A DNA stretch of 33,474 nucleotides from an uncultured Pelagibacteraceae bacterium (GTDB taxonomy: Bacteria; Pseudomonadota; Alphaproteobacteria; Pelagibacterales; Pelagibacteraceae), in NCBI GenBank assembly GCA_902537845.1, contig CACBDC010000010.1, positions 1 to 33,474 of the forward strand, read 5' to 3'. Positions 26,669 to 33,474 of the stretch are shown in pieces. Every line of letters begins with the position of its first letter. Position 1 is the first letter of the stretch. Below the pieces are notes generated by a model that searched no databases, was not told the DNA's origin, and saw only the letters and a list, made by a program, of their open reading frames with translations. The position numbers and the translations under genes were made by a program.

Positions 26669-27010
26669 CTAATCAAACTTATTATTTTTTTTTTCTCCGA
26701 TACTAGCATACCAAAAAATTAGAGGAATTATGCCTATTATTGTTAATGCTAAAAGTTGATACCAACCAGACTTGCCGACATCGTGTAATCTTCTTGCACC
26801 TACAGAAAGTGTTGGAACCAAAGTAATTAATGTAACTATCCAAATAAAAAACCCATATTCAGTTTCTCCTGTTACATAATCCCAGACGTCAGCAATAAAT
26901 TCACAACCAGTCACAAATAAAAAAAACCACCAAAACTCAGCTCTAGATGCTCTCCCATTAAAATTTGAAAATTTTGCAAAACAAGTTGAAATAGACTCTG
27001 AAAATGTCAT
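26669..27010 (-). CDS. DUF805 membrane protein (stand-alone)
   Basis: A 113-aa DUF805 family protein. The family is small inner-membrane proteins with about three or four spans and no established function. Landmarks are GRASRAEFW at 19-27, hydrophobic spans around 28-40, 53-70 and 85-103, and RRLHDVGKSGWY at 73-84. It is the last gene of the minus-strand five-gene block; its ATG overlaps by one base the stop of the upstream GYF_2/DUF805 gene (TAATG), so the two are translated together. The two DUF805 domains share the GRASR(A/S)E(F/Y)W and RRLHD motifs and may derive from a duplication. Confidence 0.9.
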   Translation of the reverse strand: MTFSESISTCFAKFSNFNGRASRAEFWWFFLFVTGCEFIADVWDYVTGETEYGFFIWIVTLITLVPTLSVGARRLHDVGKSGWYQLLALTIIGIIPLIFWYASIGEKKNNKFD

Positions 27011-27813
27011 TAATTATTTTTTTTCTTTAATTGAAGAGGATATTCTCCAAATTGATTTTTGCCTTGTGTACCTAAAGTTGCACACATAACTAACATAATT
27101 AATCCACCTACAAAAGGAATGAGATAAATTAAAACGTACCAACCTGATTTATCAATGTCATGAAGTCTTCTGACTGACACTGTAAAGCTGGGAATGGTTA
27201 ATATTAAGAAAAGTAAACCAATAAATAGATCGGCATTATCACCTCCAATAATAAATGGTATTACATAAAGTATTAGTGAAAAAAGATAAAAATACCAATA
27301 TTCTGATCTACTAGCCCGGCCTTTTAAAACAAAATATTTTTTAAAACATATTCCTACAGCTTCAAATATATTTATCCCTATTACGTTATCATCATCGTAG
27401 GTATTATCCCTTTTTAATTCAGATTCCTGCAATTCTTCGTCAGTTTTTAATTCATTTTTAAAACTTTTAGTAGAAGCTTCTTTGTTGTTAATAGGTTCAA
27501 TTTTTTCTGCTTTAACTTCCTCTTTAACAACTTCAATTGGTTCAGGAACTATCTCTGGCTCAATTGGTTTATCTTTTGAAATAAATGATTTTATGTCTTC
27601 CTCAGGACTTTCTGGTTTTGCTATTTTTTCAACTTTTTTGTTAAACAAATCCTTTAGCTCATCAATATTTATGGCTGCAGTCCATTTGCCTCTTAGACCT
27701 GCCTTCACCTGAGTGTTTTCTTTTACAGTTTCGCTATCTATTAAAGCTTCTAAGCTAGATAAAGAGTTGACTGTTATTTCGGCGCCATTGTTATCTATAA
27801 ATTTGTAAATCAT
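27010..27813 (-). CDS. GYF_2-like domain fused to DUF805 membrane domain
   Basis: A 267-aa two-domain protein. Residues 1-57 look like a bacterial GYF_2 domain (Tyr3, a short repeat-like fold, KWTAAINIDELKDLF at the end), a class thought to bind proline-rich peptides. Residues 61-140 form an acidic, Glu/Pro/Lys-rich linker with PEIVPEPIEVVKEEV. Residues 148-257 are DUF805 with GRASRSEYW at 165-173 and RRLHDIDKSGWY at 215-226. There is no signal peptide, so the GYF_2-like part should face the cytoplasm, where it could contact the Hsp70-like protein or the cytoplasmic end of the 637-aa protein. It starts 1 bp after the stop of the 637-aa gene. The GYF_2 call is by eye. Confidence 0.82.
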   Translation of the reverse strand: MIYKFIDNNGAEITVNSLSSLEALIDSETVKENTQVKAGLRGKWTAAINIDELKDLFNKKVEKIAKPESPEEDIKSFISKDKPIEPEIVPEPIEVVKEEVKAEKIEPINNKEASTKSFKNELKTDEELQESELKRDNTYDDDNVIGINIFEAVGICFKKYFVLKGRASRSEYWYFYLFSLILYVIPFIIGGDNADLFIGLLFLILTIPSFTVSVRRLHDIDKSGWYVLIYLIPFVGGLIMLVMCATLGTQGKNQFGEYPLQLKKKNN

Positions 27814-27814
27814 T

Positions 27815-29728
27815 TTATTGAGGGAAGGTTAATTTTCCTGGTCTTTCCACTACAAACCCTGCACCACCTCTTCTAAGCACAGATGGTTCAGCTGAATAAC
27901 TTGATCCACTAGTTATAGAGAAAACACCTTTAAAATCTCTTTGTGCTTTTTCAAAATCAAGATTCATGTATGCGGCCATATTTGATTTTACTGTTGACCC
28001 TGGAAAAGCAAAAAATTTATTATCAAAATTTAAACACCAAATCTCTGATTTTTCAAAAGCACGAGGTGAATTAATTAAAATAGTTTTTGTTCCATCCTGT
28101 CTTTCTTTTCTGCTTAAAGCTAAACCATTCCATTTTTGTTTAAAAGTAACAACTTTTGAAAAATCATCAATTGCATCTTTATAGTCTGAGATTAAGTCAT
28201 CATATTTGTTTGCAATAATTTCTTCAGGAGTTTGTGGCTTCTGTGTTGCTTTTGCTGGACTCTTAGATTGATCGATGGAAGAGCGAGAAGATGAAGCTAC
28301 AGACTGTAGTCTCTCAGAAGTTGACTTCAGTTGACCTTCTAACTCACTAAATTTTCTACCAGCACTATCTGTGGCACTACTTAATGATGAAATTTTTCGC
28401 TGTTGGAAATACACATAAGCTCCAATTGCTACAATTAAAGCAAAACCAAGTAAATAAAGTGCGAAATTAAAGTAATTAAATCCTGAACCTACAGTTCTAT
28501 CTAACTTTATTACATCAGTTCTAAGTTGCTCAATATCAAGGATAATTTTTGAATAATTATCAGTTTCCTGTTTAATTTTATTCAATTCTTTCTCTATTGA
28601 TTTGGTATCAATATTGGGACTATCAATATTTTTTTTATACGCTTGTAATCTTTTTTTACTATTTGTTTGTTGTATAGACTTTAATCGATTAGATATATTT
28701 ACATAATCATTTGATGAGCTTAATTCTTCTATTTTTTTTCGAGTATTTTTAATATCACCTTGTAATTTTTTTATTACTGGGCTATCTGGAAAATGCTCTT
28801 CTTTTAAATCAAAAAGTTTTTCATACATTTCAGAAACATTTTTATCGCTTTTATTTTGAATGCTTCCTATTTCAAAAAATTTTTTTATTGATTTTTCAAT
28901 TTTCTTGTAATCATTTGCTAATTTTGAAATATCTTTGTTAATACCATCAAATTTGACTGTTACACTGTTAATAATATCTTTTTGTTCTGTTAATTTTTTT
29001 TCTGCTAATTCTACTATTCCAGGTTTATTTTCGCTCACCCATTTATTTTCTTCAGCTTTAGCAGCTTCATTTTTACGCTTTGCTTCTTTATCTGCTTTTT
29101 CTTTTTTTGTTTCTTCAATTAAGTAATCAGGTGTATAATAAACAAGTGGTCCTATATCATCAGGTACTTTAATTCCATTATCAAATAATTGTTCTCCAAT
29201 CGTAGAAGTACCAGATTTTAAACCATTAAAATCTGCAATTTTTTTTAATATTTCTTTATCATAAGTAATTGATCCGCCTTTTTCAGAATTGATAATACAG
29301 AAGGCTTTAATTATATTTACAAGTTTGCTCTCAGCAGAAAAACCCCATTCGGTGCTTGGTTTTCCTTTTATTGGCTTTACTGAAATAATGTTACCCAGTA
29401 TTTTAGCTTCAGTATCATGATAGTTTGTAATTTTCCAGGTGTTGTTTATTGAAAAATCTAATTCTTTCGAGTCATTTTTTTTGTTCTCTCCTTTTTTGCT
29501 CTCTCCCTCAGTTTCTGATGCTTTATTTTTTGACTTAACTTTTTCTTTTTTATTTTGTAGTTTGACACTTTTAGTACAGTATCTAATTTGAACTTGCTCT
29601 TTAGTTAAATCTGGAGAAATTTTTTCTAATTTAGAAATTTTACTACTATGATGTGAATAAGCGTGAGTGAGCGAAAATAAAAATATAACTCCAGTAACAA
29701 AAAATTGATTAATAAATTTTTTCGTCAT
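27815..29728 (-). CDS. Signal-peptide, coiled-coil, single-span protein of the Hsp70-like operon
   Basis: A 637-aa protein not assigned to a known family. A signal peptide (about 1-23, ending SLTHAYS) starts it. Residues ~25-413 should be periplasmic: two cysteines (C51, C144) that could pair, a Lys/Glu-rich low-complexity stretch (58-90), a Trp-containing globular part (~90-185), then long charged coiled coils (~190-410). One membrane span lies at about 420-441, followed by QQRK, so the C terminus is cytoplasmic by the positive-inside rule. The cytoplasmic part has a Ser-rich coiled coil (~445-505) and a C-terminal domain (~508-637) with KWNGLALSRKE, EIWCLNFDNKFFAFPG and GGAGFVVERPGKLTF. It starts 2 bp after the stop of the Hsp70-like gene. 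It looks like an envelope-spanning scaffold or sensor. Confidence 0.85.
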   Translation of the reverse strand: MTKKFINQFFVTGVIFLFSLTHAYSHHSSKISKLEKISPDLTKEQVQIRYCTKSVKLQNKKEKVKSKNKASETEGESKKGENKKNDSKELDFSINNTWKITNYHDTEAKILGNIISVKPIKGKPSTEWGFSAESKLVNIIKAFCIINSEKGGSITYDKEILKKIADFNGLKSGTSTIGEQLFDNGIKVPDDIGPLVYYTPDYLIEETKKEKADKEAKRKNEAAKAEENKWVSENKPGIVELAEKKLTEQKDIINSVTVKFDGINKDISKLANDYKKIEKSIKKFFEIGSIQNKSDKNVSEMYEKLFDLKEEHFPDSPVIKKLQGDIKNTRKKIEELSSSNDYVNISNRLKSIQQTNSKKRLQAYKKNIDSPNIDTKSIEKELNKIKQETDNYSKIILDIEQLRTDVIKLDRTVGSGFNYFNFALYLLGFALIVAIGAYVYFQQRKISSLSSATDSAGRKFSELEGQLKSTSERLQSVASSSRSSIDQSKSPAKATQKPQTPEEIIANKYDDLISDYKDAIDDFSKVVTFKQKWNGLALSRKERQDGTKTILINSPRAFEKSEIWCLNFDNKFFAFPGSTVKSNMAAYMNLDFEKAQRDFKGVFSITSGSSYSAEPSVLRRGGAGFVVERPGKLTFPQ

Positions 29729-29730
29729 TT

Positions 29731-32700
29731 TTAAATTTTAATTTTACCACTAGTTATATTCTGTATGATTTCTTTTAATCCCTGGATAAATACTGGTTCA
29801 ACAATAGTAGATGTTTTTTGTAATTCTGCAATTGAGTCATCTCCTTCAATAGATTGTTGGTTTTTAGCATTATCTAATGCTCTTGCTTGTCCATTTCTTA
29901 ATTCTGCATTTATTTTTCCCTCTAAATCACCTTCAAATTTTTTAGTAAGTTTTACTGGGATTTTAGAATAAGCTTGTAGAAGCTTTAAAAAATTTTTTAA
30001 TTGCGAAATATCTTTAATTCTCCATTCAGAATCGACATTTAATTTTGACACTATTCCAATATTTGTTTTACCTACTACAACATCTTCTCCTAGGATAGTT
30101 TCATGAGATCTTTCTTTAATATTAAGATCAGTTGCGCCGGTTTGGTCAACAAGTAGGCCGTAAGAAACTTCATGTTTAGGAGTATTAGTAAATTCAACAG
30201 ATATAGAGCTAAAAATTCCTCCCGTTACTTTTTCAATCATTTTAGACAGGCCCTCTTGATCATCACTTTCTTCAAATACAATTTTATAGAGAGTGCTTGC
30301 TTTTCCTCCTAAACAAATTTTTAATGATTTAGATACTCCCTTTTTAAAATGATCATTTTCAATTAAATGATTTAATACTTGTGATATATAGTAAAGTATT
30401 CCAGAGAGAGCTAATTCTGTTAAATTTTTAAGAGCTTTTCCTTTTTCTTTACCACTAATAAGTTCAAATCTACTTTCAAAAGCAGCACCAAATTGTGGGC
30501 TGTTTACTAATAATTCAACACCGTTTTGTAATTTGGCTTTATCTTTTTTTATTTTGACCAAGTTATCATAACTACTTAAAAGTAAATCATCATTTCCACT
30601 TATGTCTTTTATTAAACCTAAATTATTACATAAAAAATCTATAAGAACGTCTTTTCCTGCTAATCTAAATGAATTTCTCCATATCAAATTTAAATTTTGC
30701 CAGATTGAAATATCAGATGTTCCACCTCCTATATCAATTGTTACTATATTTTCGGTAAAGGGAATTTTTTGACCAGATGCAAAATATAATGCACTTGAAA
30801 TACTTTCAGTTAAAAACTTTGTTTTTTCTTGAGTTTTAAAATTTGTATCACTTAAACCAATATTAACAGATCTTTTAGTTATTCTCTTAAAAGCTCTTAA
30901 ATGTTCTGATGTATACGCCTCTGGATAAGAAAAATTAAAATCAAGATTTTCTCTTTTTACTCCATTTGCTGCAGCTTCAACGGCGGCTTGCAGAATAACT
31001 TGAGAGACAAAATATTGAACTTTAGTTCTGCTTTGTTCAGCTTCATCCCATTTTAAGTTAAACTTAAGAGGTCTTTTATCATCTGGTAAATCTTCAATAG
31101 CGTAAAGAACTTGATCTACATAATAAATAAAATTACTTCTAAAAGGCAAATTATCCATTGTAGTTTCTTTAAATATTCTCTCTCTTAAAATTGTCATAAA
31201 AGGAACTGTAACCACTCTGCTTGGAACAAATTCCTTATGAGCCTGCATTACCTCTTCCACCTCTTCTTCGTCAGTACCAGGTTCATAAGGTAAATTAATT
31301 CTATCTTTAAAATTTAATGATTTAGGCTCCTCTTTATTTTCTTTGTAATAAACACAAGAATTTGAAGTACCAAAATCAATACCAATAGACCATTGGTTTG
31401 AAGTTTCTTGAATTTTTTGTGGCTCAGGTATTAGAATTAGACCAACATCAAGTCTTTTACTGTGTTCTGTATATGCATTTCCGGTTGCCTGAGTTGCTAC
31501 ATTACACATTACTGCTTCTGGAGAAGATTTAAGAGTTCTTAACTCTGTTACAGCAGTTGTTCTTTGAATCGGTATTTCTTCTCCTATTACTTGATGAGAG
31601 TTTATCATATTTCCAATGAATTTAATTTTTTCAACTTGGTTTAAAGATTCAAGTTTGTCTCGAACATCGTCAACGGAAAATATATTTTTTGGTAAAATAT
31701 TTACTTGAGCGTTACCGTCATAATAAAAATAGTATTGATCCCAGTTGTTAATCTTAATATCGGGCCAAACACTAAAACCTAACGGAACAGTTCTATTTTT
31801 AACTACGTCTTTAGCTTTATAAATTTTCTCTAGGGTGTAGCTTGTTGAATTTCCTTTTTCATCTTTAAGTTCAAGATATATAGAAGCTTTATACCCATCA
31901 CCAGATGGACTAATTATACAGTTAGTAGAAAGTGATTTTGGATCCATAAAAGTTAACATTGAACTATTTATTGGATACGCAAATTGACTTCCGTCTTTTT
32001 TATGTTCTTTTAACTGTCTGTTGTCTCCAGCAAAAATTACTAATTTTTCTGTAAAAATAGTTTCAGGCGTTAAATATAGATATCCTTGTTGCTCACATTC
32101 TGCTCTTAATGTTTTTGCAAGACCTGGGTCTTGTCTTAAAGAATTTAATGAATAATTATTCCAAACTCTAATATCAGATAAAGTTTTACCGGCAGATTGT
32201 GCCACATTAAAATCTGCAAAAATTGCTCCGTTAACTTGATCTTTAAATTCTGGTCTTGTTTCCAAACCACAGTCAAATTTAGCATTTTGGTCAGAAGCGC
32301 CAATGAAAATTTGGGCTAGCTTGTCATAAACCGGTTGTGCTGGAAGGTTTAAATTAATTTTAACTGGTGTATAACTAGAAAAACTTGCTCCTGAACTTTT
32401 AGCATCGCAAGCAGATTTATAGTCTTGTAAATTTCCAATAATAGAATTGAACACTTCATCGTTAGATGAGCCTAACGATTGAATGCTGTTAATGAGTGTC
32501 TCTAAATAATGTGAAAGAACAACATATTGCTCATTTCTCATGTCTCTTGCGTTACATGGATCTATTAAAAAACCGTCTTCATACCAAGGAAGTTTTCTAA
32601 TTCCCTCAATACCTGTGTAATCTCTTGCAGGAGCAACCATTGTATAAGGGTTTACAACAGCAATAGCTTCATTGTTAAATTTTAAAACACCAACTGCATT

Positions 32701-33141
32701 CCAATCTTGTTCCTTAGCCATTGTGTCATGCGGCAGAACATCAAATAAAATTTTACCTATATGAGCACCCTTAGACTCAGAAGATGAGCTGCTTACGGTA
32801 AAAGGATTTATTTTAATATCTTGAATGTTTACAATACTCGAAGTCAATTCATAAATATGCTTATAGTAAGGTGCCAGAGCTAGTAATGCTAAAGTCCCCC
32901 TCCATTCTCTAACAATTGACTCTCTTTTATCTATTAGACCATTTCTTACAATTAAAACTCTTGCCCAAACATCTGGAACTGAAACTATTTCAGAGGCAGA
33001 GACAACTTCTTCTCCACCCATTTTTAATCCATTAGAAAGTTTTGATAAAAAGGTTGCATCTTCACTTTTCCATTCACCAGACGACGCAATATTTGGTATC
33101 TGATTTTGTTCGTTTAGCGGTGGTAATACTTTTTTAACCAT
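29731..33141 (-). CDS. Large protein with C-terminal Hsp70/actin-like ATPase domain
   Basis: An 1136-aa cytoplasmic protein without signal or membrane span. The ATPase fold is shown by phosphate-1 GIDFGTSNS (D589), phosphate-2 TIDIGGGTSD (D803-D810) and an adenosine-type LGGKAS (G945-G946). The domain spans roughly 585-1035. DnaK has phosphate-1 near residue 8; here ~585 residues precede it, containing SVPDVWARVLIV, REWRGTLALLALAPYY, LPWYEDGFLIDPCN and, around 475-500, KINNWDQYYFYYDGNAQVNI. Only ~100 residues follow, so there is no DnaK-type substrate-binding domain and no C-terminal EEVD-like tail. This is therefore not a standard chaperone. It starts 2 bp after the 105-aa gene. Relation to SrfB-type or other actin-fold families is possible but not established here. 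Confidence 0.9.
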   Translation of the reverse strand: MVKKVLPPLNEQNQIPNIASSGEWKSEDATFLSKLSNGLKMGGEEVVSASEIVSVPDVWARVLIVRNGLIDKRESIVREWRGTLALLALAPYYKHIYELTSSIVNIQDIKINPFTVSSSSSESKGAHIGKILFDVLPHDTMAKEQDWNAVGVLKFNNEAIAVVNPYTMVAPARDYTGIEGIRKLPWYEDGFLIDPCNARDMRNEQYVVLSHYLETLINSIQSLGSSNDEVFNSIIGNLQDYKSACDAKSSGASFSSYTPVKINLNLPAQPVYDKLAQIFIGASDQNAKFDCGLETRPEFKDQVNGAIFADFNVAQSAGKTLSDIRVWNNYSLNSLRQDPGLAKTLRAECEQQGYLYLTPETIFTEKLVIFAGDNRQLKEHKKDGSQFAYPINSSMLTFMDPKSLSTNCIISPSGDGYKASIYLELKDEKGNSTSYTLEKIYKAKDVVKNRTVPLGFSVWPDIKINNWDQYYFYYDGNAQVNILPKNIFSVDDVRDKLESLNQVEKIKFIGNMINSHQVIGEEIPIQRTTAVTELRTLKSSPEAVMCNVATQATGNAYTEHSKRLDVGLILIPEPQKIQETSNQWSIGIDFGTSNSCVYYKENKEEPKSLNFKDRINLPYEPGTDEEEVEEVMQAHKEFVPSRVVTVPFMTILRERIFKETTMDNLPFRSNFIYYVDQVLYAIEDLPDDKRPLKFNLKWDEAEQSRTKVQYFVSQVILQAAVEAAANGVKRENLDFNFSYPEAYTSEHLRAFKRITKRSVNIGLSDTNFKTQEKTKFLTESISSALYFASGQKIPFTENIVTIDIGGGTSDISIWQNLNLIWRNSFRLAGKDVLIDFLCNNLGLIKDISGNDDLLLSSYDNLVKIKKDKAKLQNGVELLVNSPQFGAAFESRFELISGKEKGKALKNLTELALSGILYYISQVLNHLIENDHFKKGVSKSLKICLGGKASTLYKIVFEESDDQEGLSKMIEKVTGGIFSSISVEFTNTPKHEVSYGLLVDQTGATDLNIKERSHETILGEDVVVGKTNIGIVSKLNVDSEWRIKDISQLKNFLKLLQAYSKIPVKLTKKFEGDLEGKINAELRNGQARALDNAKNQQSIEGDDSIAELQKTSTIVEPVFIQGLKEIIQNITSGKIKI

Positions 33142-33143
33142 AG

Positions 33144-33461
33144 TTATTTCTCACACGATTTAAAAAGAACATCCATAAACACTCCAAGTCCTTTTTGATC
33201 TTTATTAATTTTTTTGTAACAAATATTGCTCATTACATTTAGAAGCGTAAAATTACTGTTATCTGTGATTAATTCAGTAAATTGTTTTTTTTCAGAAGAA
33301 TTTAGTTTTTCTTTAAGTTTAACTCTATTAGGGTTTCCTTTAGCGCTAAACTCAGCAAAAAAGTCGGTTTCGACTAAGTTCATTTTCTGATCACTATTAA
33401 CAACTGATGAAAAATTCATATCTGTAATCCAAGTAAGTACATCTTGTGAATATTCCTTCAT
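33144..33461 (-). CDS. Short protein of unknown family, possibly 5'-truncated
   Basis: From the ATG at 33461 this is 105 aa, soluble, Lys/Ser/Asn-rich, beginning MKEYSQDVLTWITDMNFSSV and ending VFMDVLFKSCEK. I do not recognise a family. The frame stays open upstream through four more codons to the window edge, with no Shine-Dalgarno site before the ATG, so it may be the C-terminal part of a longer protein. Its stop is 2 bp from the start of the Hsp70-like gene, which makes it the first visible member of the five-gene block. Two cysteines (one near the middle, one third from the end) are present without a recognisable metal motif. Confidence 0.65.
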   Translation of the reverse strand: MKEYSQDVLTWITDMNFSSVVNSDQKMNLVETDFFAEFSAKGNPNRVKLKEKLNSSEKKQFTELITDNSNFTLLNVMSNICYKKINKDQKGLGVFMDVLFKSCEK

Positions 33462-33474
33462 CAAAGATATTATT

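Follow-up and report, generated by a model that had tools for sequence, protein, structure and literature searches.

In Synechocystis, the proteins Sll0445 (Tubulin_2), Sll0446 (FtsA-like) and Sll0447 (DivIC) co-fractionate with the pilus-assembly proteins Slr2015 and Slr2018, and insertion mutants of sll0445, sll0446 and sll0447 are each impaired in phototaxis (PMC9880817). These genes belong to sll0443-sll0449, a predicted SyCRP1-controlled transcription unit (PMC2633013), some genes of which are LexA-responsive (PMC4759255) and two of which are deregulated in a comFB mutant (PMC12313861). For FtsZl1, Makarova and Koonin proposed membrane remodelling or vesicle formation (PMC2875224), and Kaur et al. 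2020 describe biological-conflict systems that include tubulin, HSP70, an extracellular vWA, and fusions of GYF to trypsin or to transmembrane (TM)-rich regions (PMC7159879). Here, we describe a gene cluster that appears to pair a Tubulin_2 GTPase with a giant actin/Hsp70-like ATPase, at the right end of a 33,474-nucleotide stretch of DNA from an uncultured Pelagibacteraceae bacterium of SAR11 (contig CACBDC010000010.1, assembly GCA_902537845.1). This stretch, called the window in what follows, is the entire contig (C10), and the genome is 0.90 Mb and 75% complete.

Results

At the right end of the window lie four complete genes and a cut one, all on the minus strand (Table 1) and separated, reading downstream, by 2, 2, 1 and -1 bp, just as an earlier note written from the sequence alone had given. 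That note described a five-gene operon with no visible tubulin or vWA partner. Results showed that the tight packing is real, but the fifth open reading frame (ORF) is incomplete, because the contig stops within it. Its product shares 69% identity with residues 406-513 of a protein of 514 aa encoded at the same position of a related SAR11 locus (L003:8454-9998), and 64% identity with residues 407-514 of the Tubulin_2 protein of another (L006). The window itself contains only this C-terminal piece, and the PF13809 (Tubulin_2) scores come from homologues, with E values of 1e-10 in L006 (N-terminal half), 8.7e-12 in another alphaproteobacterial genome (G717) and 2.2e-10 in Gloeothece. Judging from this homology, the fifth ORF is the C-terminus of a Tubulin_2 GTPase. 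A PDB profile search for the tubulin fold gave nothing significant, and a PF13809 match in genome G660 looks spurious, having no module context.

As the window is the whole contig and relatives show upstream genes, the operon runs past the contig end, and by comparison with these relatives the cluster is the 3' part of a larger operon severed there. The rest was sought elsewhere in the window's own assembly (G000), where the remaining part of the tubulin gene was not found, and none of it lies in the part examined of the NAD-kinase contig (C11). The whole unit is seen in Pelagibacteraceae single-cell genomes, which encode close ATPase homologues (75-78% identity). In their four loci (L003-L006), the gene order is exported vWA-like protein, 4-TM protein, Tubulin_2, ATPase (1136-1140 aa), coiled-coil protein and GYF-like/DUF805 protein, with genes for trypsin-like (PF13365, 1e-14) and SH3-like proteins adjoining the vWA gene. 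Looking beyond position 33474 by way of relatives, a check that the earlier note had proposed, gave a vWA-like, a 4-TM and a full Tubulin_2 gene upstream, so that the supposed lack of tubulin and vWA partners does not hold.

The same vWA/TM/Tubulin_2/ATPase order, hereafter the core, was found in another Pelagibacterales family (G055, ATPase 36% identical), in G717, on plasmids of Gloeothece, Picosynechococcus and Synechococcus (about 21-23% identity; the Gloeothece vWA gene is divergent and not co-directional), in Prevotella, and in five IMG/VR contigs, the vWA profile being significant in three of these five. The tubulin gene adjoins the ATPase gene in every ATPase-recruited module locus with upstream sequence, and the ATPase gene adjoins the tubulin gene in every tubulin-recruited locus read in Prevotella and IMG/VR. 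Moreover, 11 of 13 splits are common to the tubulin and ATPase trees, and label shuffles (n=5000) reach at most 3. As shown by this congruence, tubulin and ATPase are co-inherited as a unit. Viral contigs matched by the ATPase only (L031-L037) have no tubulin neighbour and probably encode other actin-like proteins.

The earlier note had taken the cluster for a function kept in a streamlined genome, which its distribution contradicts: the unit is rare, patchily distributed and partly mobile. The ATPase is carried by 3 of 297 Pelagibacterales genomes (a fourth, weak match, in G245, is MreB) and, at phylum level, by 2 of 398, with the window's own genome included in both counts. In SAR11, the unit sits in a variable neighbourhood close to the ugp transporter and NAD kinase, and in relatives that lack the unit the same site is empty or filled by other genes (among L043-L048). 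The four single-cell copies occupy a variable stretch upstream of NAD kinase, and the window copy adjoins ugpC, on a different contig from NAD kinase. Between ugpE and the module, L006 has a gene for a proteasome-like protein (L006:2066-2791; Anbu-type by eye), and a gene downstream of one SAR11 copy shows weak HNH/type IV restriction matches (L005:18224-19351; 4e-5). In addition to the plasmid copies, the genes immediately preceding the module on a contig of the viral collection encode a relaxase (PF03432) and a tyrosine integrase (L039:1-2949), and another copy has a resolvase gene near it (L040:2026-2688); in these two, the module is possibly cargo of mobile elements.

The second product of the unit, a large ATPase, had been called Hsp70/actin-like in the earlier note, and profile comparison agrees. 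HMM library scans gave MreB, FtsA and EutA matches only, all sub-threshold; the protein falls under all Pfam and NCBIfam cut-offs and has no match at E 1 to PF00012 or to SrfB (PF07520), considered as another identity. A profile of nine homologues matches Stress-70, MreB and FtsA structures. When its core was aligned by HHalign to DnaK (18 sequences), the match reached Prob 97.6 (pairwise E 2.6e-12, 259 columns), and against MreB 94.6, with shuffled and reversed controls at 0.1-0.2. Nine aligned homologues from three phyla all agree at the key residues of the phosphate-1, phosphate-2 and adenosine motifs. These motifs are intact in nearly all copies; a simple pattern scan misses one or more of them in the divergent L039 and L040. 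The alignment with DnaK extends no further than DnaK position 310, and the first 574 residues of the protein match neither DnaK (Prob 0.3) nor tubulin. Therefore, this ATPase is a member of the actin/Hsp70 superfamily and not an Hsp70 chaperone.

Around this pair of NTPases, topology was predicted from hydropathy and lipobox. The exported protein has a DxSxS-type motif in SAR11 (DQSLSM), G055 and Gloeothece, degenerate in other copies, and a PDB profile search with it gave nothing significant. Proteobacterial copies add to the core a bitopic coiled-coil protein whose cytoplasmic C-terminus is a domain of its own; in the window, this is the 637-aa protein, whose signal-like N-terminal segment and single TM bear out the topology proposed before. 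A profile search showed that its final ~130 residues form a domain recurring in further module proteins, namely a PDZ protein in G055 (1.7e-19) and a GYF/SH3 protein in G717 (2e-18). The G055 protein (L008:5866-7851) is bitopic and replaces GYF/DUF805, and the G717 protein (L019:15216-16937), encoded beside the module and transcribed divergently from it, has a TM, two SH3_3 stretches and a GYF-like N-terminus (by eye).

The two DUF805 proteins named in the earlier note are indeed present, and its GYF_2-like domain exists as a match that stays sub-threshold. Their place at the center of the cluster did not stand: DUF805 was seen in Pelagibacteraceae copies only and does not accompany the core in G055, in G717, in cyanobacteria or in Bacteroidota, and Picosynechococcus has a TM2 protein where SAR11 has DUF805. 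Recurrence of the five families in unrelated genomes, suggested as a check, is thus found for the core and not for DUF805; likewise, core homologues are not scattered in other genomes and those of DUF805 are. In L003-L006, the GYF/DUF805 gene is not followed by the second DUF805 gene. By these comparisons, DUF805 is a lineage-specific accessory and its second gene a further local addition.

Table 1. Features of the cluster at the right end of the window.
Feature	Coordinates	Strand	Basis
Tubulin_2 (PF13809) GTPase (predicted), C-terminal 109 aa, gene cut by contig end	33144-33473	-	homology to L003, L006
ATPase, 1136 aa: ~575-aa N-terminal region, actin/Hsp70-like nucleotide-binding core, C-terminal tail	29731-33141	-	
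Actin/Hsp70-like ATPase core, aa 575-1022	30076-31419	-	HHalign vs DnaK, MreB
Phosphate-1 motif GIDFGTSNSC, aa 587-596	31354-31383	-	D589, G591, T592 invariant
Phosphate-2 motif TIDIGGGTSD, aa 801-810	30712-30741	-	D803, G805, G806 invariant
Adenosine-type motif CLGGKAS, aa 943-949	30295-30315	-	G946 invariant
Bitopic coiled-coil protein, 637 aa: signal-like N-terminus, periplasmic part, one TM, cytoplasmic C-terminus	27815-29728	-	
TM segment of coiled-coil protein, aa 422-440	28409-28465	-	hydropathy 2.14
Module-specific C-terminal domain of coiled-coil protein, aa 508-637	27818-28207	-	profile matches
GYF_2-like N-terminus + DUF805 membrane protein, lineage-specific accessory	27010-27813	-	DUF805 1.2e-26, GYF_2 E 0.27
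Second DUF805 protein	26669-27010	-	PF05656 5.8e-24

Elsewhere in the window, a 200-aa protein encoded beside uvrA (2238-2840) matches Urate oxidase N-terminal (PF06181).

Discussion

We give about even chances to the view that the unit is an accessory envelope module, in which two membrane-anchored NTPases of cytoskeletal type connect surface or membrane machinery with a vWA side outside the cytoplasm. From the composition, gene order, co-inheritance, motifs and predicted topology observed here, we infer an assembly, a direction and an output. The tubulin-like and actin-like subunits would co-assemble in a nucleotide-dependent manner on the cytoplasmic face of the inner membrane, where the coiled-coil and 4-TM proteins may anchor them, and through the assembly a signal or a force would be relayed between the surface or membrane machinery and the extracytoplasmic side with its vWA, protease and SH3 proteins. 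The output would probably be pilus-dependent phototaxis in cyanobacteria, and in SAR11 the GYF-like/DUF805 protein may serve as a local membrane adaptor. The ATP-driven envelope machine of the earlier note keeps, in this form, a well-supported architecture (cytoplasmic NTPases, bitopic scaffold, exported partners, cross-phylum order), once its points on tubulin, DUF805 and retention are corrected. More tentative, and in our opinion rather doubtful, is the wider proposal of a horizontally spread engine of mixed, co-assembled tubulin and actin, not FtsZ-FtsA, tied to an extracytoplasmic vWA in at least three phyla.

The proposed cyanobacterial output comes from Synechocystis, whose sll0445-0447 genes are the probable counterpart of the module. 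This orthology is inferred because the domain labels of the Gloeothece module follow one another as they do in Synechocystis: its Tubulin_2 match (L015) is followed by FtsA (0.0028) and DivIC (0.004), the latter two weak. In addition, sll0443-0444 precede sll0445 within the transcription unit, the position expected of vWA-TM (PMC2633013). No experiment on the SAR11 module was found in the literature.

Several observations weigh against the envelope module. The Synechocystis orthology is drawn from domain labels and gene order, not from sequence identity. As the sll0445-0447 mutants also show altered PSII fluorescence (PMC9880817), their phototaxis phenotype may be indirect. The exported protein matches no vWA Pfam family up to E 10, and its vWA assignment is taken from the motif alone. 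AlphaFold2 models of this protein (4 rows, pLDDT 35) and of the ATPase (5 rows, pLDDT 34) allowed no fold to be inferred. Moreover, no T2SSE/PilB-type ATPase (pilus/type II secretion) was detected in the module carriers G000 and G055, both incomplete. To our knowledge, Bacteroidota are generally without such pili. Considering both points, pilus control is unlikely as the universal output of the module.

The main rival is a biological-conflict system, anti-phage or anti-plasmid, in which the vWA, trypsin and SH3 proteins would sense an attack on the envelope, the tubulin/Hsp70-like assembly would set a threshold and the DUF805 or TM2 protein would act as membrane effector. It owes this place to the patchy occurrence of the unit (in the order and in the phylum alike), to its mobility, with copies on plasmids and beside relaxase/integrase or resolvase genes as well as in a variable SAR11 neighbourhood, and to its likeness to the tubulin/HSP70 systems of Kaur et al. 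Still, we regard it as unlikely, since the module genes scanned have no DO-GTPase, GAP1, FNIII, MoxR or HSP70 family match and the core genes match no PADLOC defence family at E 0.001 or better; in the PADLOC 2.0 scan, the sole match was that of one accessory's trypsin domain to a protease model. The motility phenotype and SyCRP1/LexA regulation of the probable cyanobacterial counterpart also speak against a conflict role.

Less probable again is a membrane-remodelling or vesicle-forming machine, where a tubulin-like filament deforms the inner membrane and the actin-like protein is its adaptor, as FtsA is for FtsZ. Tubulin_2 with vWA and membrane proteins is the FtsZl1 context (PMC2875224), the tubulin/FtsA-like pair resembles FtsZ/FtsA, and, for the ATPases of Gloeothece and L038, no Pfam model scores better than FtsA. 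On the contrary, the customary GTPase, kinase and OmpA partners are absent from the module genes scanned, an ATPase of a thousand residues with a large N-terminal region is unlike FtsA, and no vesicle phenotype is reported. Finally, a stand-alone Hsp70-type chaperone with incidental neighbours has DnaK/Stress-70 as best profile match in its favor but is very improbable, considering the cross-phylum gene order, the congruent trees, the lack of a substrate-binding domain, and the way the likeness to DnaK is confined to the core.

Taken as an accessory envelope module, the unit links the Tubulin_2 family, the Synechocystis phototaxis genes and the operons of SAR11, Prevotella and plasmids as one module with defined parts, and offers candidate partners for a family of tubulin-like GTPases, the role of which has been in question since 2010. 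It predicts that the giant actin-like ATPase is an obligate partner of the Tubulin_2 GTPase, and knockouts of the counterpart already exist in a laboratory organism, Synechocystis. In the literature searched, we found no paper joining the SAR11, Bacteroidota and cyanobacterial copies; an earlier listing in supplementary tables is possible.

Comparison with known systems

With DnaK/Hsp70, MreB and FtsA, the module shares the actin-fold nucleotide-binding core and its phosphate-1 and phosphate-2 motifs; unlike in these proteins, the core is preceded by a ~575-aa region, and there is no substrate-binding domain. The DO-GTPase GAP1-N2 systems (PMC7159879) have in common with it tubulin, an HSP70 fold, an extracytoplasmic vWA (putative in the module), GYF-TM fusions, a trypsin-like protease and SH3. 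However, the module genes scanned gave no DO-GTPase, GAP1 or FNIII up to E 1, the module ATPase is not a PF00012 Hsp70, and the module occurs in cyanobacteria, which are almost devoid of those systems.

The likeness of Synechocystis sll0443-sll0449 lies in the order Tubulin_2, FtsA-like, DivIC, as in the Gloeothece plasmid homologue (PMC9880817), and in the two genes preceding the tubulin gene in the transcription unit. It differs in that no DUF805 or GYF is reported and in its SyCRP1/LexA regulation, the two being likened by labels and order, not by identity.

FtsZl1 (PMC2875224) shares the Tubulin_2 domain, an exported DxSxS protein, membrane partners and a patchy distribution. Canonical FtsZl1 loci in G667 and G568 are without the ATPase. 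The module tubulin has 514 aa and no long coiled-coil, compared with canonical frames of about 1100-1500 aa, and the module genes scanned are without a P-loop GTPase, kinase or OmpA partner. The module adds instead the giant actin/Hsp70-like ATPase, unmentioned in the main text of PMC2875224 as available to us. Altogether, the module resembles the canonical FtsZl1 system but differs from it.

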